Of a stretch of DNA of 49,132 nt, positions 2,185 to 12,120 are shown in pieces (positions within the stretch are counted from its first letter, which is position 1; every line of letters begins with the position of its first letter). Below the pieces are notes generated by a model. The model saw nothing but the letters and a program-made list of their open reading frames with translations, was not told the DNA's origin and searched no databases. Origin of the DNA: Chloroflexi bacterium OHK40 (GTDB lineage Bacteria > Chloroflexota > Chloroflexia > Chloroflexales > Chloroflexaceae). The stretch is taken from contig SFCB01000006.1 of the NCBI GenBank assembly GCA_004367505.1, positions 1 through 49,132 of the forward strand, written 5' to 3'. The position numbers and the translations under genes are program-made.

Positions 2185-3048
2185 TCAATCCTTCCACCCG
2201 CTACATGGTGTACGGGCAGAATGGCGACGAAGCCACCTTGCTGCAATTATGGCCATCAAAGTCATTACGAGTATTTGCAGCCAACCCGGCTCTGGGTGAC
2301 CTGGCCGTCCGACCCACGCAATAGGGCCGTGAACGTGAAGCGGGCGCAGCGAAGGCGCTCCGTCTGGTGGGCCGAAGACGCATTTCTGAGCAACGTTCCA
2401 GCCGTAGTGAAAACCACTGACGAGCCAGAGGTTACCTGTTTTAAGACGCAGCAAGGCGAGGAAGAGGCCAGCGATGCTCAGCCCTAGGAAGCGCTTCCAT
2501 CCGGGGCCGTGGTAGCGAGCGAAGAGGCTAGTGCTAAGGAGGAGTGCGAGGGGCAAGCCTAAAGCCTTTTCCAGTGTGTCAAAACCGTACCCACGGAATA
2601 CCATTTCCTCATCGAATACCAGCGTGGCTTCTTGTGCGGCGATCAGCGCCGCGGAGGCGAGGACTGTCCTTGGCGAAAGCTCCTCCCGCCAGCCCCACGC
2701 TGGTGCCGAAACCCATCCCCTAACTGCCGCAATGCCGAACATAGCACTGCACGCCGCTATTCCGATTGCCACTCCCCGGGCAAGATCGGTTAGCTCCCCC
2801 CGCGTGGGCAGCCGCTCCCAATCACGACGACTCTCAGACGGTAAATATGTGAACAGGTTTGTGAGACCAACCACGCCCGGGAAAGCAAGCGGGTGACCAT
2901 TTGCCTCAAAAGGGTTATCTGCATCATACGGAAGTTTACTTACAGTCAGCACGATGCCCGCCATCGAGCTCAGGTAGACCACGCTTCGTGCCGCCGCTGA
3001 GTCGCGCAGCACGTGGGTTAGTGTTCTTAGGGTCATCGTCCGGCTCAT
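2185..3048 (-). CDS. CPBP-family (Rce1/CAAX-type) intramembrane metalloprotease
   Basis: A 287-residue polytopic membrane protein with all three CPBP motifs: EExxxR (E147, E148, R152 in EEMVFRG), FxxxH (F176, H180) and HxxxN (H214, N218 in FHYGWN). These form the metal-binding active site in Rce1-type CAAX proteases, and in bacteria the family processes or handles lipidated or secreted peptides. Its ATG overlaps the stop of the kinase gene (ATGA, 4 bp) and is preceded by GGAG, so it is translationally coupled to the ComQXP-like genes. A role in cleaving the isoprenylated prepeptide is therefore likely but inferred; self-immunity or pheromone export assistance are alternatives. It is absent from the classical Bacillus comQXPA operon. 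Confidence 0.85.
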   Translation of the reverse strand: MSRTMTLRTLTHVLRDSAAARSVVYLSSMAGIVLTVSKLPYDADNPFEANGHPLAFPGVVGLTNLFTYLPSESRRDWERLPTRGELTDLARGVAIGIAACSAMFGIAAVRGWVSAPAWGWREELSPRTVLASAALIAAQEATLVFDEEMVFRGYGFDTLEKALGLPLALLLSTSLFARYHGPGWKRFLGLSIAGLFLALLRLKTGNLWLVSGFHYGWNVAQKCVFGPPDGAPSLRPLHVHGPIAWVGRPGHPEPGWLQILVMTLMAIIAARWLRRHSARTPCSGWKD

Positions 3049-5549
3049 TCATCTACTCCTTTCTTACCGCGGAAACCAGGAAGATTCTCCGGTGTTGTCA
3101 GCGTGGCAGAAACGCTTTTATCACCAGTGTGTGCAAGATCCTCCCACCACGGAGATACTGCAGTCAGAAGAGAGGCATCTTCCCGGCTGGCGATTGGAAC
3201 CACAACACACACCTCGATGCCGCCGGTCTCGTGCAGCAACCAGTTGAGCTTCGCCCCGATCGCATCCGCGCTCTCTTGCATAAAATGGAGCCCCAAATGT
3301 CCGGCCTTCCGCTCAATCTTCTGCCGGGCCGGGCCATTATCTCGGATTGACAGCAGGAGCTGCTGATTGCCTTCAGCTGGGAAGCGCAGAGTGACGATAA
3401 TTTCTGTCGCACCCGCATGCTTGATCGCGTTAGTAACTGCCTCGCGGGCAATCATGATCAGTTCACGGTGTATGTGACGACTCACTGGTACCGGCGACAA
3501 CTCGACATTGATATGGATATGACCGTTCCAGGTTGTGCTCAATCTCTCGACTACCCGGCGCAGGCTGGCTACAAGGCCGAGTGGGTCATCGGAGTATGCC
3601 GGGCGCAATTGCTCGCAGATGAGCCTGAGCAGTGTTCCAGTTGATTGTTCGCTCTCCAGCAATGTCTGCAGCTCATCGCTCAGCTCGGGCGCCAGCACGC
3701 TAGCCTGGGCCACGAGGCCCTCAAGCGATAGGATGTTGAGGCGCACGTTCACATTCAGCACCTCATCGTGAAGTTCACGAGCGATCGCTGACGCCGTTTG
3801 TTCCTGCGCCTGCTGGAGATGCCGATACAGGCGGCGGATGAGCTTCTGTGCCTGCACCTGCTGCTCGTAATTTGCACTGTTCGTGAAGGCCAGAGCGGCC
3901 GCTGTGAGCAGCTGGTTCAGCTCGCGGAAGTCATGCTCGCGGTATGGATCGAGGTCTCCCCGTGGGCCGAGAACCACCAGCCCGAGGGTCGCCCCCTTCG
4001 CGTGGCGGATGATGCCCCACAGGTTGACCAGCGGTGCGAACACGAGTGCCATACCCTGATCGTCGAGGATCTTCTGGCTGATACGCTGCTGCACAAGGCC
4101 GATTGGCAAGAGCGACTCCTCGTGGCGAAAGACCTGATCGATCAGCGTCGACGTGATGATTGGAGGAAGTTCAAGCCGACATTGGGTGGCCAACTCCAAC
4201 TCATCGGCCTCGGATGCGCGCTTGATGTAGAGCGCAACTGGCGGCTTACGAAAGGTTGCTGTCAAACTGTCGCTCATAATCTCGGCGAGCTGTCTTGCTT
4301 CGAGCGTTGAGCCGAGCTGCATCGTGGCCTTGCTGAGCCCATCTTGCGACTGGTCGCCGGCACCTAGTACAGTCTCCAGCCAGCGTACTACCTGGAAGGC
4401 CGGCTGATACGCTGCCAGCACAAGGACCGTGACAAGCATAGGTGTTGGGGTCAACAGCTCAAGCTGTGCGGCAACCACTAACAGCACCATGATACCCACC
4501 ACAGTACATGCGTGGGTGCGAATCTGGCGTGCAAGCACATCGACTCGAAGGAGATCGATACTGATCCCGCCGAGAAGGTAGGCCAGCGGGACCAGCGCAG
4601 CGAATACGGTCAGCGTGACCGGGGGAATAGCGACAATGAGTTCCGGAGTGAGTATTTCACCTAGCAGCAGCACAACCCAGACGCAGGCGACAATCACACA
4701 GGCTGTGGCAATCAGGCGAATTTGACGCTGAATGTGCGCGATGGTTGTTACACGATATGCGCGCCAAAGGATGAACCCGCTGAGTAGGAAGCATGCAAGA
4801 AAGACAAGGGTTGTACAACTATCAAGCCACTTGAGGAGACCTGTTGTCGCACCACTGTAGGCAGCAAGGCAAAGGACAGCCAGCTGTAAAAAACTTATGG
4901 CGATCAGCCACCAGCGTCGGGCTCTTGCCAGGAGTGTTGGTGACGTCGGCCGGCTTGGATACCACAGGTGCATCATCACGGCTGTCGGTGCTAGAAGGGT
5001 GAGCAGCACCCAGAGAATGCCAACCGTCAGCACGTAGGACACCGCCTGTGCAAGTTGGTAAACGCCCAGCGCCGCGCCGAGGAGCATCCAAAACCAGGCT
5101 GCCCACTGGAGCCGGCGGTCGTTCCTCTGGCGCGACGTGCCAAGGGCAACGCCAGTAGCCCAACACACCAGCGCGACGAATGTACGAAGTAGCTTGTCAA
5201 CCTGAAGAGCAAAGTCGGGGCGATGCGCCTGGAGGACCAAGGATAGCAGCTCGTTATCACGCCTGACTGTCATCGGGCTTGGTGTTCCTTCACGCCACGG
5301 CAAGGGAACTACCAGGGGCCGGCTATTAAACGACTCCCAAGGATGCCCGTAGAACTGCACAATCAGATCGCCCACCCGGACGCCAGCACGCTCACCGGGT
5401 GAGCCTGCTGCGACAGCCAGTACCTTGCCTGTCGCCGGGTCGACGGAGACGCCGAGCGTGGGGAGCGGCCAGTACAGCGCTGCGGCCAGAAGGATCGCGG
5501 AAAGGAGCAGCGCTGCGGCAACGTGAAAGCGAGAAAGGGCTGACATCAT
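3045..5549 (-). CDS. comP-like: ComP-like sensor histidine kinase (PDZ, multi-TM, GAF, HisKA_3, HATPase)
   Basis: An 834-residue kinase. TM1 is about residues 10-30; a PDZ-like domain follows (32-108; AGSPGERAGVRVGDLIVQF); then about eight to nine further hydrophobic segments (121-385), a GAF-like region (400-560), the HisKA_3 dimerisation helix with phosphoacceptor H594 in ARELHDEV, and an HATPase with N-box N707 (REAVTNAIKHAG), G1 D737-G739 (RDNG) and G2 GHLGLHFM (750-757). An extracytoplasmic PDZ between TM1 and a block of membrane helices, ahead of a HisKA_3 kinase, is the architecture of Bacillus ComP, the ComX pheromone receptor. The gene overlaps the ComQ-like gene by 4 bp (ATGA) and the CPBP gene by 4 bp. 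Its partner is most likely the NarL-type regulator at 7049. Confidence 0.88.
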   Translation of the reverse strand: MMSALSRFHVAAALLLSAILLAAALYWPLPTLGVSVDPATGKVLAVAAGSPGERAGVRVGDLIVQFYGHPWESFNSRPLVVPLPWREGTPSPMTVRRDNELLSLVLQAHRPDFALQVDKLLRTFVALVCWATGVALGTSRQRNDRRLQWAAWFWMLLGAALGVYQLAQAVSYVLTVGILWVLLTLLAPTAVMMHLWYPSRPTSPTLLARARRWWLIAISFLQLAVLCLAAYSGATTGLLKWLDSCTTLVFLACFLLSGFILWRAYRVTTIAHIQRQIRLIATACVIVACVWVVLLLGEILTPELIVAIPPVTLTVFAALVPLAYLLGGISIDLLRVDVLARQIRTHACTVVGIMVLLVVAAQLELLTPTPMLVTVLVLAAYQPAFQVVRWLETVLGAGDQSQDGLSKATMQLGSTLEARQLAEIMSDSLTATFRKPPVALYIKRASEADELELATQCRLELPPIITSTLIDQVFRHEESLLPIGLVQQRISQKILDDQGMALVFAPLVNLWGIIRHAKGATLGLVVLGPRGDLDPYREHDFRELNQLLTAAALAFTNSANYEQQVQAQKLIRRLYRHLQQAQEQTASAIARELHDEVLNVNVRLNILSLEGLVAQASVLAPELSDELQTLLESEQSTGTLLRLICEQLRPAYSDDPLGLVASLRRVVERLSTTWNGHIHINVELSPVPVSRHIHRELIMIAREAVTNAIKHAGATEIIVTLRFPAEGNQQLLLSIRDNGPARQKIERKAGHLGLHFMQESADAIGAKLNWLLHETGGIEVCVVVPIASREDASLLTAVSPWWEDLAHTGDKSVSATLTTPENLPGFRGKKGVDE

Positions 5550-6463
5550 TGCATCACGTTCCGTGATGCCACATTGTCCGGCGCTTCAATGAGCTCGGGT
5601 AGCTCACCAAAGGACTGTCTCAGCAGCTCGGTGCAGACTGATCTGGTCGCAGGGGGGAGTGGTTCGAGCATAGCTTCCAGTGCCCGGGTGTATGCGACGT
5701 AGATTGAGCTCCAGAAAGCGAATGCCGCCCGGGTGCCATACGTAGCGAGGTGTGGATATGCGGCAAGAAGCGCTCGGCTAAGTGTTACAGCTTCAGGCTG
5801 GCTCTCCTGCACCTCGTGGTCCATTAGGTCATCGTGATACTGGAGTAGCATCCCGTAGGCTGAGCCGACATTGGTGAGGGCCACAATTTGTGCCTCATCG
5901 TCCGTAGCCAGAGTAGCTGCGCCGCCGAAGGCCAGGGCGAAGGTGGCTCCCGTCTTCTGGAGGGCGAGCCGCTCATAGAGATCGAGCGATTGTTGGCCAG
6001 GTGTCTCAATCGCAGCGCGCTTTGTGGTCAGATCGAGATACTGACCGCTAAGTAACTGAGCAACTGATGCCGACCAGAAGCGCTGAAGTCGTGCTATTCG
6101 AGCGGTTGGAATCACATCGGAGTTGAGATGGACGAGGGCATGCTGCGCGGCGACGTAGATGCTGAAAGCAAGGTGGTATTGGAGCGGTGCGGGGAGGGCC
6201 TCTAGCTGAGGACTGCCAAGTGGATCGCCATCCTGGACATGATCCAGAAAGAGTGTCGTCACATAGAGCCTACGCCAGGCCTCAACAAACGGTGCAATAC
6301 TGCTTCGCTGAACGTTCAACGTCTCAGCAATGCGCACGATGGCCTCAGTCCAGAGCGGCTCGGGGGACGATGCGCTCGTGCTGTAAAGGAGCGTGTCAAG
6401 TGTGGCTTTGAGTTCGTCCGAAACGGGAAATGGAGGAAGATCAGGAGGGAAGTGGCTGGTCAT
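5546..6463 (-). CDS. comQ-like: ComQ-like isoprenyl transferase (polyprenyl synthase fold)
   Basis: A 305-residue all-alpha protein with the two Asp-rich motifs of trans-isoprenyl synthases: a first motif of the ComQ type, LDHVQD (D74, D78), and a second QYHDDLMD (D211, D212, D215). GQYLDLTTKR (140-149) and QKTGATFALAFGGA (169-182) also match the fold. ComQ uses a prenyl diphosphate to modify a peptide side chain rather than to elongate a polyprenyl chain. The call depends on context: a prepeptide gene upstream, a ComP-like kinase overlapping downstream (ATGA), and a regulator beyond. Start ATG 6463 has only a weak AAAGAG upstream. A stand-alone terpenoid synthase is the alternative, less likely in this operon. 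Confidence 0.82.
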   Translation of the reverse strand: MTSHFPPDLPPFPVSDELKATLDTLLYSTSASSPEPLWTEAIVRIAETLNVQRSSIAPFVEAWRRLYVTTLFLDHVQDGDPLGSPQLEALPAPLQYHLAFSIYVAAQHALVHLNSDVIPTARIARLQRFWSASVAQLLSGQYLDLTTKRAAIETPGQQSLDLYERLALQKTGATFALAFGGAATLATDDEAQIVALTNVGSAYGMLLQYHDDLMDHEVQESQPEAVTLSRALLAAYPHLATYGTRAAFAFWSSIYVAYTRALEAMLEPLPPATRSVCTELLRQSFGELPELIEAPDNVASRNVMQ

Positions 6464-6507
6464 GGTTCGTGTGCTCTTTAATCGGCGCGACCAAGCCGTG
6501 CACCGGC

Positions 6508-6538
6508 CTGCGGCCCGAGGTTATCCCCCGGGCCGCAG
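6508..6538 (-). terminator. Hairpin between prepeptide and ComQ-like genes (attenuator or processing signal)
   Basis: A perfect 10-bp inverted repeat, CTGCGGCCCG and CGGGCCGCAG, with an 11-nt loop, lies 11 nt after the prepeptide stop and 44 nt before the ComQ-like start. No T-run follows, so it is not a clean intrinsic terminator. It may cause partial termination or protect the 3' end of a short, abundant prepeptide mRNA. Confidence 0.55.
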
Positions 6539-6549
6539 ATGCAAAGCCG

Positions 6550-6771
6550 CTAGCAGCCCCGGACACCGTTACCAAGGCTGTCGGTTCCAAAAAACAGGGG
6601 TAGGGTCGGAGCGATAACCGCCAGACGAGCCCCTATCTCAGCAAGACGAGGCAAGACGGAGGTGAGGGGAGTGGTAAGCCCTTCGACAGTGTCAGGGGTA
6701 GTTGACACGCTTGGACCCTCGATCGCACTGGCTTTCGAAGCACACGCTTCCGCGCGAGGCACGTCGTTCAT
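6550..6771 (-). CDS. comX-like: ComX-like pheromone prepeptide ending in cysteine
   Basis: A 73-residue peptide whose ATG has a strong GGAGG ribosome site 5 nt upstream. It has no signal peptide and no Trp. The C-terminal segment is hydrophobic then Gly-rich (PLFFGTDSLGNGVRGC) and the last residue before TAG is Cys. It lies directly upstream of an isoprenyl transferase of the ComQ type and downstream of an activator-type promoter with an operator shared across the locus. ComX prepeptides are 50-75 residues with the mature pheromone at the C-terminus. In known ComX the modified residue is Trp, so Cys (as in farnesylated CAAX peptides) would be a new acceptor; this is inference. The only other Cys is at residue 11. 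Confidence 0.72.
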   Translation of the reverse strand: MNDVPRAEACASKASAIEGPSVSTTPDTVEGLTTPLTSVLPRLAEIGARLAVIAPTLPLFFGTDSLGNGVRGC

Positions 6772-6832
6772 GACATCCTCCGTGTTGTACTACGCGATCA
6801 TCCATTTCTGGAGGGCGTAGTGTCGATTCGCC

Positions 6833-6885
6833 CTCCCCGACTTTGGGCTGGCAAAATCGGGGAGTTGCAGTATAGCAGCCCAAAG
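6833..6885 (-). repeat. Interleaved inverted repeats around the prepeptide promoter start
   Basis: Two perfect inverted repeats interlock: CTTTGGGCTG (6841-6850) with CAGCCCAAAG (6876-6885), and CTCCCCGA (6833-6840) with TCGGGGAG (6857-6864). The longer pair flanks the -10 box (6869-6874) and so acts on DNA (operator or cruciform). The shorter pair falls at the predicted 5' end of the mRNA and could form a stabilising hairpin. Confidence 0.6.
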
Positions 6886-6914
6886 CACGGTTGAGAAGAT
6901 GTTAAATCACATAG
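6869..6914 (-). promoter_or_regulatory. P1: activator-type promoter of the prepeptide operon
   Basis: Reading leftward: operator CTATGTGATTTAACATCT (6897-6914, core ATGT-N6-ACAT), -35 TTCTCA (6892-6897), 17-bp spacer, and extended -10 TGC-TATACT (6869-6874). The operator centre is 31.5 bp from the -10 edge, about -41 to -44 from the likely start, overlapping the -35 as a class II activator site would. A second half-site AATCACAT (6925-6932) repeats the first (6905-6912) exactly 20 bp upstream, two helical turns. The same layout recurs at 7803-7847. Confidence 0.72.
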
Positions 6915-7048
6915 GTTTAGAATGAATCACATTACAATTATGCCATCTCATTAATATTAGGGTTATTGGTACTATTAAGCATAGAGAAACTCGACCTCCA
7001 CTCTTGATTGTGCAAAAGAGTCGCCTCAAGCAATTATTTCGTCTTTTT

Positions 7049-7669
7049 CTACGATGATGCATCGTACTTGCGCCGGTACCAATCTACTAACTGAAGGCGT
7101 GTTGGGCAGCCGGTCTTGCGGAGCAACGAGGTAATGTAGTTCTGCACCGAGCGCGGGTCTATTCGCATGTAGGCCGCAATTTCGCGGGTAGTCAAACCTT
7201 GCGCCAGAAGTTTGAGCGATAGCTGCTCCTTGGGAGTCATCGATGCGTCACCAAGCGGCTGTGCGAGGTACTCCTCCACAAATGGGGAACAGAAGGTCTC
7301 ACCCGCCACAACGGCCGTAATCGCCTCGACCAGAACCGATGATAACTCTTCCTTGGCCACATATCCAGCTGCTCCAGCGCCAAGCAGCTCGGGCGCAAGG
7401 TCGATCGTTGAGGAGAAGATGATCACCTTGAGTGAAGGGCAAACTCGTTGAAGGCACTGTATGACGGCTAGGGGTGAACCGTCCATATTTCCCAGATCGA
7501 GAATCACGACATCGGCAGGATTGCGTCGGGCGACGCTCACTACTTCGGGAAACGATCGGGCAGTTGCCACGACGGTGAATTGCTCGGAGCGAGTCAACAG
7601 AGCGCTCAGAGCTTCGCGCACAATAGGGTGATCGTCAGCGATCAAAATACGAACGAGTTGACCAGACAT
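7049..7669 (-). CDS. comA-like: NarL/LuxR-type response regulator, ComA-like
   Basis: A 206-residue regulator: receiver domain (residues ~5-120) with acidic pair DD (IADDHP), phosphoacceptor Asp in VVILDLGNMDG, the switch Ser/Thr in IIFSST and Lys in YVAKEEL; then a LuxR/GerE helix-turn-helix (~135-200; LTTREIAAYMRIDPRSVQNYITSLLRKTG). I chose ATG 7669 because GAGG lies 6 nt upstream; an in-frame ATG at 7681 lacks a ribosome site. It is the expected partner of the HisKA_3 kinase encoded downstream. It is separated from the prepeptide gene by a 277-bp AT-rich promoter region, and its own promoter carries a perfect copy of the shared palindrome, so autoregulation is likely. Confidence 0.85.
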   Translation of the reverse strand: MSGQLVRILIADDHPIVREALSALLTRSEQFTVVATARSFPEVVSVARRNPADVVILDLGNMDGSPLAVIQCLQRVCPSLKVIIFSSTIDLAPELLGAGAAGYVAKEELSSVLVEAITAVVAGETFCSPFVEEYLAQPLGDASMTPKEQLSLKLLAQGLTTREIAAYMRIDPRSVQNYITSLLRKTGCPTRLQLVDWYRRKYDASS

Positions 7670-7723: not shown

Positions 7724-7769
7724 ATTATAGGGCTGAAGGGCGCAAAATGCACTATGTGAAAACACATAG
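7724..7769 (-). promoter_or_regulatory. P3: promoter of the response-regulator gene with perfect palindromic operator
   Basis: The palindrome CTATGTGAAAACACATAG (7752-7769; 7-bp arms, 4-bp spacer, core ATGT-N6-ACAT) sits 31.5 bp from a consensus -10 TATAAT (minus strand, 7724-7729). The -35 position (7747-7752, GTGCAT) is poor, as expected for an activator-dependent promoter. The arm-spacer-arm design parallels the Bacillus ComA box (6-bp arms, 4-bp spacer), although the sequence differs. Confidence 0.7.
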
Positions 7770-8046: not shown

Positions 8047-8349
8047 ATGAGCAGCATCTTCGCCCGTTTCCTTGGCCTCTCCCCCGGCGATCCCTTTCCC
8101 TTCCACGTCGCGGTCCTGCTGCTCGAACGACGCACTCGCCTCACGCGCAGCGAGGCCCACGTGCTCGTGCTGGATTATCTCGGATTCACCCGTGACGAGA
8201 TTTGCGAGCAACAGAGCATCTCGACCGAGACCATCCGCACCTACTGGAAGCGCATCTACCGCAAGACGAACTGCCGAGGTCGCAGAGAGATCCGCTGCTG
8301 GCTCGAGTCCCTGCTCCAGAAAGAGTTTGGAGGCGCTGAAGCCGCATAA
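8047..8349 (+). CDS. Stand-alone LuxR/GerE-type helix-turn-helix protein
   Basis: A 100-residue protein with a LuxR-type HTH over residues ~32-93 (LTRSEAHVLVLDYLGFTRDEI ... ISTETIRTYWKRIYRKTNCRGRREI) and no receiver or ligand-binding domain. The ATG follows GCGAGG by 6 nt. It is the first gene of the rightward transcript from the shared-operator promoter at 7803-7847 and the last gene before the transfer operon, so it may relay the quorum signal to the transfer genes, or compete with the response regulator for ATGT-N6-ACAT sites. Both roles are inferred from position. The ~190-nt leader shows no convincing gene. Confidence 0.8.
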   Translation: MSSIFARFLGLSPGDPFPFHVAVLLLERRTRLTRSEAHVLVLDYLGFTRDEICEQQSISTETIRTYWKRIYRKTNCRGRREIRCWLESLLQKEFGGAEAA

Positions 8350-11469: not shown

Positions 11470-12120
11470 ATGCGCCGCTCCCGTTCGCGCACAATCTGGC
11501 TCTCCGCCCTCGGCTGGCTCTTCGGTCTGGCAACCTTCCTCCTACCCGCACTGGCGAGCGCACAGAGCTACACGCTCCAGGTCACGCTACGTGACAGCAC
11601 CGGCGCGGCAATCGTCGGGGTGTCTCTGATCGTGCGGACGGAGGACGGCGAGGAACTGGCTCGCCAGGTCACCGACCGCGACGGAGCGGCCCACTTTGGA
11701 AGCCTCTCAGGCGTCGTGCGGGTGCTCGTCGATGGGCAGCCGCGGGGTGGGCCGCGGCTCTACCAGCTTGGCGACGACGCCCGGGGTGTGCGGGTGGACC
11801 TCGACCAGGCCGCGCTGCCGCTCACGCTCAATCTGCGCGCCGAGCCCGACGGGCTCGTGCTGCCCGACCCCGCGACGATGCTGACGCTCGAAGAAGGCGG
11901 TCCGATCGTAGTTGATACCTCGCCCATCCCAACCGCCGCCCTCGCCACACCAGCGCCGCTGCCGACCACCCGCCGCACCGCAATCACGCCGAGCGGAAGC
12001 GGCAGCCTAGAGGGCGAGCCTCCCCCTCAGGCCGGCTGGGTACCGCCGGTCACGCTGCTCATCATCGTCGTCGCGGCCGTCCTGCTGCGCCTCGTCCAGA
12101 AGCTGCGGAGCACACGATGA
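11470..12120 (+). CDS. Secreted membrane-anchored protein with carboxypeptidase-regulatory-like domain
   Basis: A 216-residue protein with an N-terminal signal segment (AlaSerAla-type cleavage near residue 34), a small beta-sandwich of the CarboxypepD_reg or Ig type ([22 protein letters not shown], then a [10 protein letters not shown] turn), a Pro/Thr-rich linker and a C-terminal transmembrane helix (~190-208) with a basic tail. The ATG is preceded by GAGGAA. The stop overlaps the next start (ATGA), so it is coupled to the VirB6-like gene. It probably belongs to the transfer apparatus at the cell surface; no enzymatic motif is visible. Confidence 0.7.

Follow-up and report, generated by a model that had tools for sequence, protein, structure and literature searches.

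The window, that is the whole stretch of 49,132 nucleotides that was analysed, is the entire contig C124 of a 6.93-Mb genome and carries a five-gene cassette that is best explained as a prenyl-peptide autoinducer system on a probable conjugative element, a reading that is considered to be quite likely. The five genes are confirmed on the minus strand at 2185-7669, in the order regulator, prepeptide, prenyltransferase (PT), kinase and Rce1/CPBP protease. The same genes are found in the same order in a second genome, where the PT is 71% and the peptide 60% identical, which is more than chance would give. Clearly, the locus is a real, conserved system. The features of the window that are discussed here are the following.

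2185-3048, minus strand: CPBP/Rce1-like intramembrane protease (PF02517, 59.8 bits; EEMVFR, FARYH and HYGWN)
3045-5549, minus strand: sensor histidine kinase, 834 aa, with TM1, PDZ, more TM-length helices, GAF-like, DHp and HATPase parts (PDZ_6 28.2 bits, HATPase_c 30.7 bits)
5546-6463, minus strand: trans-IDS-like PT, 305 aa (PF00348, polyprenyl_synt, 43.5 bits; DHVQD and DDLMD)
6464-6552, minus strand: GC-rich hairpin between the prepeptide and PT genes (RNA fold -45.8 kcal/mol, z -3.65)
6550-6771, minus strand: prepeptide, candidate prenylated pheromone precursor, 73 aa, ending in GNGVRGC (60% identity in L031)
7049-7669, minus strand: NarL/LuxR-type response regulator with a putative ComA-like role, 206 aa (Pfam Response_reg 60.5 bits, GerE 41.5 bits)
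7753-7768, no strand: palindrome TATGTGAAAACACATA, a putative box for the regulator, lying 84 bp ahead of its gene
8047-8349, plus strand: small divergent LuxR-type HTH protein, possible accessory regulator, 100 aa (GerE 33.0 bits)

The layout agrees well with what the sequence-only reading of this DNA had claimed. The prepeptide gene is found as a 73-aa ORF with GGAGG ahead of its ATG, the 4-bp overlaps between the PT and kinase genes and between the kinase and protease genes are both present (ATGA), and the regulator is of the NarL type, its Response_reg and GerE matches both being over the Pfam cut-off, as are the Rce1-like match of the protease and the polyprenyl_synt match of the PT. Of the claimed PDZ/multi-TM/GAF/HisKA_3 architecture of the kinase, the PDZ part passes the cut-off (PDZ_6), as does HATPase_c, whereas HisKA_3 reaches 16.0 against a cut-off of 24 and GAF gives no match. 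In a related kinase (L040) GAF and HisKA_3 both pass the cut-off, and the catalytic His is kept in all eight aligned kinases. The AlphaFold model of the kinase (pLDDT 76.0, pTM 0.54) has a first helix at residues 4-26, a beta-rich region (34-107) at the PDZ match, helices of TM length between 113 and 395, and, from 418 to 537, an alpha/beta domain. A counterpart of the small HTH protein is present near the cassette in L031, L032, L033 and L034, and also near L137.

It is proposed that, after the 73-aa prepeptide has been made, the PT would use an allylic diphosphate to prenylate an acceptor near the C-terminus, being Cys73 here and Trp in some relatives. The CPBP intramembrane protease may then trim or release the C-terminal pheromone, which would be sensed by the predicted extracytoplasmic PDZ/TM part of the kinase. 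On phosphorylation, the NarL-type regulator would bind TATGTGWWWWCACATA boxes upstream of its own gene, generating positive feedback, and in some relatives it would also bind boxes before the prepeptide gene. What the sequence itself shows is the gene order, the motifs, the conservation, the selection acting on the peptide and, for the genomes searched, the occurrence of exact boxes in cassettes only; prenylation, acceptor, processing, topology, sensing and DNA binding, as well as further targets such as element transfer, are what we infer for this system.

The window's family of cassettes is referred to as type A. In a search of 158 genomes of the class with the PT, eight clear loci are obtained in seven genomes, the window included (E 5e-27 or better), and all seven genomes belong to the taxonomic order of the window; the next-best match has an E of 6e-13. 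When 400 genomes drawn from the phylum are searched, the strong matches are the already-known loci only, and the 13 weaker matches (4e-19 or worse) have no kinase or regulator within flanks of roughly 1.5 kb. A scan of named genome contigs with the PT gives eight loci, two of them in a Chloroflexales MAG and one each in Candidatus Chloroploca asiatica, in an Oscillochloris MAG, in Chloroflexi bacterium AL-N1, in a MAG that bears the label Gracilibacteria (but falls in the window's family in the class-genome search), on plasmid pHAU01 of Herpetosiphon aurantiacus and in a record labelled Scytonema. The window brings the total to nine loci. These kin among class genomes and named contigs bear out the Chloroflexota host that had been supposed. 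A regulator and a kinase are found beside the PT at all nine loci, which speaks for the autoinducer reading, and the prenyl-peptide two-component logic of the sequence-only reading is supported. The protease is present at each of the seven loci whose contig reaches far enough; in L031 it is cut by the contig end, and in L064, where the kinase is shortened, it follows at a distance of about 2 kb. In L036 the regulator (cut by the contig end) and the kinase are incomplete or in pieces, the kinase of L032 is cut, and the contigs of both L032 and L036 end inside the kinase. On pHAU01 the cassette corresponds to Haur_5072 to Haur_5069, annotated as regulator, hypothetical protein, kinase and abortive infection protein.

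The record labelled Scytonema tolypothrichoides (L064) has the cassette, a GC content of 61.7% and a flanking gene that is 53% identical to that of the window's element. Scytonema genomes have a much lower GC content than this; because of the GC content and the flanking gene, the record is probably contamination. A virus-borne cassette was also considered and rejected, since viral contigs gave no PT match and one weak kinase-core match.

A second Chloroflexota family having peptide, PT, kinase and regulator (type B) is seen in L040 (3045-7397, minus strand) and L078 (8656-12945, plus strand), with a leader peptide that has a Trp near its end and genes in X-Q-P-A order; these loci belong to the same class as the window, and the L040 kinase matches PDZ as well as GAF and HisKA_3. 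The same order is observed for further peptide/PT/kinase/regulator loci in L146 (4611-8750, plus strand) and L143 (2562-7000, minus strand), the kinase and regulator of the latter being broken into several frames. In two type B loci of one genome, L076 (8562-9842, plus strand) and L075 (8510-9895, minus strand), a peptide-like leader with AWAP is fused in frame to the N-terminus of the PT. Yet another variant is found in L144 (8443-9585, minus strand) and L145 (8715-9865, minus strand), where prepeptides ending in GWWS and GWWA lie beside a ComQ/PT-like enzyme (that of L144 having neither IPP motif) and the sensor has 1,109 or 1,113 aa. On the Acaryochloris marina conjugative plasmid pREC3 (L087, 5833-6780, plus strand) there is a PT without the IPP motifs, with no kinase annotated within about 6 kb.

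The C-terminal cysteine of the prepeptide is the likely acceptor at four of the nine loci, as judged from the peptide C-termini. The ORF between regulator and PT ends in GNGVRGC in the window, GSGVRGC in L031, GGRGGC in L032 and GGVRGC in L033, and Trp-bearing ends are found in L035 (EHGGWS) and in L064 (GHGGGWSA, with its N-terminus in a run of N). In Herpetosiphon (L037) the position is occupied by an ORF whose end has no Cys and no Trp, the peptide copy of L036 (G021) is fragmentary, and in Chloroploca (L034/L063) no peptide is found between regulator and PT. In total, four of the nine loci have a Gly-Cys end, two a Trp near the C-terminus and three neither, and a Gly directly precedes the Cys or Trp in all six peptides having one. 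The window peptide is Cys-terminal and has no Trp, and the C-terminal Cys aligns with the Trp of relatives.

The prepeptide gene is under purifying selection when compared at the sequence level with L031 (dN 0.27, dS 1.13, dN/dS about 0.24). BLAST with the window peptide gives weaker matches in L032 and L033 than in L031. When 9,383 stop-to-stop segments are searched with HMMs built from only two of the peptides, the other pair is recognised across the subfamilies (E 1e-6 to 3e-3), with the first unrelated segments at E 0.5-0.7; these are the independent version of the search, as a six-peptide HMM finds its own members by construction. The L064 peptide fragment is recovered by HMM at about 1e-3, and the AL-N1 peptide, having an E of 0.61 with the four-peptide HMM, is assigned by position.

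It is possible, and close to an even call though on the doubtful side, that this is a bacterial Cys-prenylated pheromone, in which a trans-IDS-like enzyme S-prenylates a C-terminal Gly-Cys and an Rce1-family protease matures the peptide, a single enzyme family having changed its acceptor between Trp and Cys, the whole converging on the yeast a-factor design and travelling as fast-diverging cargo of a conjugative element. On the PT tree the Trp locus L064 nests among the Cys loci (supports 97/87 and 93/93), so that there would be at least two acceptor changes, if this placement holds. In the available text of a 2017 review, Cys isoprenylation is described as not detected in prokaryotes (PMC5331326). 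The opposite case, which is considered unlikely, is that the peptide is prenylated on a residue other than the C-terminal Cys, or that this Cys provides a thiol for a disulfide or thioester. As far as the available part of a 2026 review goes, all characterised trans-IDS-like PTs target Trp (PMC13290415), PalQ having rejected the other residues tested (PMC13290415, PMC10853753). Trp is found in two relatives, the L032 peptide also has one at a distance of eight residues from the end, and the Herpetosiphon ORF has neither residue. Against this, the other three Cys peptides are without any Trp, and their Cys stands where relatives have Trp. A Gly before the acceptor, as in the window-family peptides, is what PalQ favours according to the same part of the 2026 review (PMC13290415).

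A sensor-half profile of the kinase finds relatives in 12 of the 158 class genomes at E 1e-8. Ten sensor loci have an E below 1e-40, comprising eight PT cassettes together with G001:C978 and G059:C47, in which a kinase (in two frames in G059:C47) and a regulator are found with no PT or peptide in the stretch examined. The weaker matches include G056:C2, a kinase without PT, and G046:C4, a kinase that is cut by the contig end and accompanied by a protease. Type A kinases and regulators with no PT or prepeptide between or beside them are seen in L137 (498-4467) and L138 (845-3980).

The proposed regulator box is distinguished by its location. Exact TATGTGNNNNCACATA (TATGTGN4CACATA) occurs at six sites in 12 genomes, every one inside a cassette: G000, G001, G021 and G042 have one each and G056 has two, and there is none in the cassette genomes G003 and G014, nor in the cassette-free G005, G015, G043, G047 and G070. 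The reversed-pattern control gives three sites (one in G005, two in G056), so that the numerical excess is modest, and what counts more is that, in the genomes searched, exact boxes are confined to cassettes. The window palindrome precedes the regulator gene and is thereby also between this gene and the divergent HTH gene at 8047-8349. L035 and L037 have exact palindromes in the gap that separates regulator and prepeptide, the regulator gene of L036 has one at its very end, and no exact copy is present in L032, L033, L063 (Chloroploca) and L064. A regulon read from near-matches to the box was rejected, the one-mismatch sites outside cassettes being near the level of the reversed control (for example 3 versus 2 in G000, 32 versus 21 in G056, 6 versus 7 in G070). 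A one-mismatch box is found 3' of the protease gene on pHAU01 and in L139; Haur_5068 of pHAU01 was discarded as a regulator target, as it starts about 700 bp beyond this box.

These observations bear on a second alternative, in which the product is mainly a prenylated antimicrobial RiPP, autoregulated by the kinase/regulator pair, and the CPBP protein confers immunity. CPBP proteins can be bacteriocin immunity proteins. The five cassette genes include no exporter, though, the exact boxes occur only in cassettes, and two loci keep kinase and regulator without peptide and PT, like receiver-only variants, all of which makes the antimicrobial reading improbable, even if the Paenibacillus PalPXQ system pairs a kinase with a prenylated RiPP and is given no signalling role in the available text of its description (PMC10853753). 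With regard to the protease under the autoinducer reading, the motifs EExxxR, FxxxH and HxxxN are all present in L139 and in each of the six cassette copies that are full-length; in L031 the contig end cuts the gene off ahead of them. The proteases for ComX are described as unknown in the part of the PalQ paper at hand (PMC10853753), and the cassette names a candidate maturation protease for prenyl peptides.

Canonical synthases bind IPP through GKxxR and through arginines after the first Asp motif. Neither GKxxR nor RRG is kept by any of the eight type A PTs, the five type B PTs or the four authentic ComQ sequences, whereas among the 58 other Chloroflexota PF00348-like ORFs (distinct ORFs from 64/65 loci, scored with an RRG pattern slightly different from that used on type A, type B and ComQ) GKxxR is kept by 53 and RRG by 55. 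Three ORFs have neither motif, namely L010, which is truncated, and L014 and L022, both of which belong to peptide/PT/sensor cassettes. The joint loss of GKxxR and RRG would thus, as suggested by the four ComQ sequences, mark the trans-IDS-like PT class, and it offers a simple key for more such systems, because both full-length motif-less enzymes among the 58 sit in such cassettes. The window PT has this class feature, being an isoprenoid-synthase fold without IPP motifs beside a precursor gene, and a canonical polyprenyl synthase was rejected on account of the missing motifs. The two Asp-rich motifs that had been noted are present in a qualified sense: the second is a full DDxxD in all eight PTs, and the first is DHxQD in seven of the eight and DDxQD in Herpetosiphon. 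According to the available part of a review of ComQ work, Trp prenylation is not compatible with a DDxxD second motif (PMC5331326), yet this motif is present in the PTs that accompany the two Trp peptides.

In the unrooted PT tree, in which long branches were flagged, the type A clade and the ComQ clade are each supported at 100/100 and types A and B group together at 98/94. The tree includes every second of the 58 ORFs, omits rows of 450 aa or more as well as the Acaryochloris sequence, and has the fused leaders trimmed from two type B rows. Structure prediction of the transferase, which had been suggested as a check, gives an all-alpha isoprenoid-synthase fold (AlphaFold with eight sequences, pLDDT 83.6, pTM 0.86). 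Among the best 50 of 723 fold matches, a GGPP synthase is first and Ord1 second (E 3.7e-6, TM 0.63), Ord1 being an enzyme that farnesylates free tryptophan, as stated in the available part of the 2026 review (PMC13290415).

The fold neighbours could also suggest that the PT is an isoprenoid or terpene synthase making a small-molecule signal and that the small ORF is unrelated. By sequence, prenyl diphosphate synthases are nearest among the solved structures and the 37 matches include terpene synthases, the fold-closest of the best 50 of 723 matches are GGPP synthases, and the second Asp motif is complete. Nevertheless, this alternative is very improbable: the enzyme lacks the IPP motifs of chain elongation in all eight copies, the genome of the window has three other PF00348 matches, the 73-aa gene is conserved beside the PT in relatives and is under selection, and in type B peptide and PT occur as fusions. 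The outcome that would have refuted the sequence-only reading, a PT clearly among polyprenyl or terpene synthases with full elongation motifs and a 73-aa gene not conserved next to it, has not come about. That the cassette is a decayed or non-functional remnant can hardly be credited, since all window genes are open, catalytic residues are kept and, when compared with L031, peptide, PT, kinase and regulator each have a dN far lower than their dS, even though the L036/L067 copy has its kinase in several frames and the peptide is missing in some relatives.

The autoinducer system, which remains the preferred reading, is best regarded as a variant of the ComQXPA/PalPXQ kind and not as comQXPA proper, to which the sequence-only reading had likened it as a possible new branch. 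The comparison was made with authentic comQXPA genes from Bacillus-group plasmids. As in comQXPA of Bacillus, adjacent genes on one strand encode a small precursor, a trans-IDS-like PT without IPP motifs, a multi-TM kinase with HATPase over the cut-off, HisKA_3 below it and the catalytic His kept, and a NarL-type regulator. Unlike comQXPA, the window cassette is regulator-first instead of Q-X-P-A, has a CPBP protease and is found on a mobile element of another phylum. Its PT lies outside the ComQ clade and, unlike the pseudo-SARM of ComQ, has a full DDxxD second motif. Unlike ComX, the window peptide has no Trp, a residue that is seen near the C-terminus in the relatives L035 and L064, and at the four loci given above Cys takes the place of Trp as the likely acceptor. 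Of the proposed profile checks on the four proteins, the ComX part came out negative, the window peptide matching no Pfam family up to E 1, including ComX (PF05952) and the NHLP leader; a genome search with PF05952 is empty, equally without a match in any control, and three authentic ComX score 72.4, 25.6 and 24.6 bits against its cut-off of 25. On the ComX non-match and the PT tree, strict membership of comQXPA was rejected. The PDZ domain, taken before as a hallmark of ComP, is at best approached in the ComP of Anoxybacillus (PDZ-like, 21.9 bits against a cut-off of 23.2) and none was found in that of Priestia. When sensor profiles are compared (built from seven type A, four type B and two ComP sequences), the probabilities are 99.7% for type A with type B, 96.9% for type B with ComP and 4% for type A with ComP, so that the sensor is linked to ComP by a chain through type B.

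The cassette resembles PalPXQ of Paenibacillus alvei in having kinase, precursor and trans-IDS-like PT together and an acceptor at the C-terminal end. In the available description, PalX combines an NHLP leader with a Trp at the C-terminus, the window peptide having neither, and the three-gene cluster is without regulator and protease, both of which the window cassette has (PMC10853753).

Yeast a-factor is a C-terminal prenyl-Cys pheromone for which an Rce1-family protease is used. The window system differs from such fungal prenyl-Cys pheromones in its enzyme class, in its two-component sensing and in having no methyltransferase among its five genes; also, the window Cys is already terminal, so that there is no aaX to remove. 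A C-terminal prenyl-Cys peptide pheromone is likewise described for the fungal tremerogens in the available part of the 2017 review (PMC5331326).

The statement that no example is known in this lineage agrees with the open-licence papers searched, among which no description of such a system in Chloroflexota was listed. In the available text of a 2014 census comQXPA is confined to Firmicutes (PMC4008528), and a further source, as far as its available text goes, mentions for chloroflexi a ComP-ComA-type pair and not the full pathway (PMC8895600). If the autoinducer reading is true, prenyl-peptide signalling extends from Bacillota into Chloroflexota, on a mobile element, Chloroflexota gains a concrete, testable peptide signal, and the relatives provide a natural Trp/Cys series for asking how these PTs choose their acceptor.

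The gene content of the cassette's flanks suggests a mobile, probably conjugative element. The element context that had been proposed is supported by ParM-like (weak matches), Replic_Relax, SSB and integrase genes, which are accompanied by NlpC/P60 and by two ATPases with Walker A motifs, one of which has a weak DotL match (E 0.024). L137 and L033 share the genes after 8505 at 64-89% identity (main segments), whereas identity is 45% for the PT of L033 and 39% for the kinase of L137. The GC content is 57.5% in the cassette (2185-7669) versus 70.1% beyond it (8500-49132), making the cassette an island within the element. From the low identity of the cassette, the high identity of the backbone and the GC contrast, the cassette looks like fast-diverging cargo on a steadier backbone. 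Hypothetically, the cassette could control element transfer. L137, which resembles a receiver-only variant, adjoins the same element backbone. Because of its repeats, the 835-aa protein at 12117 gives matches to collagen and to phage tail-fibre families.

In the four Cys loci the prepeptide gene has a GC-rich hairpin after it, with z values of -3.65 in the window, -3.03 in L031, -6.42 in L032 and -1.90 in L033, the last not being convincing (12 of 200 shuffles are as good). This hairpin could set a high peptide-to-enzyme ratio.
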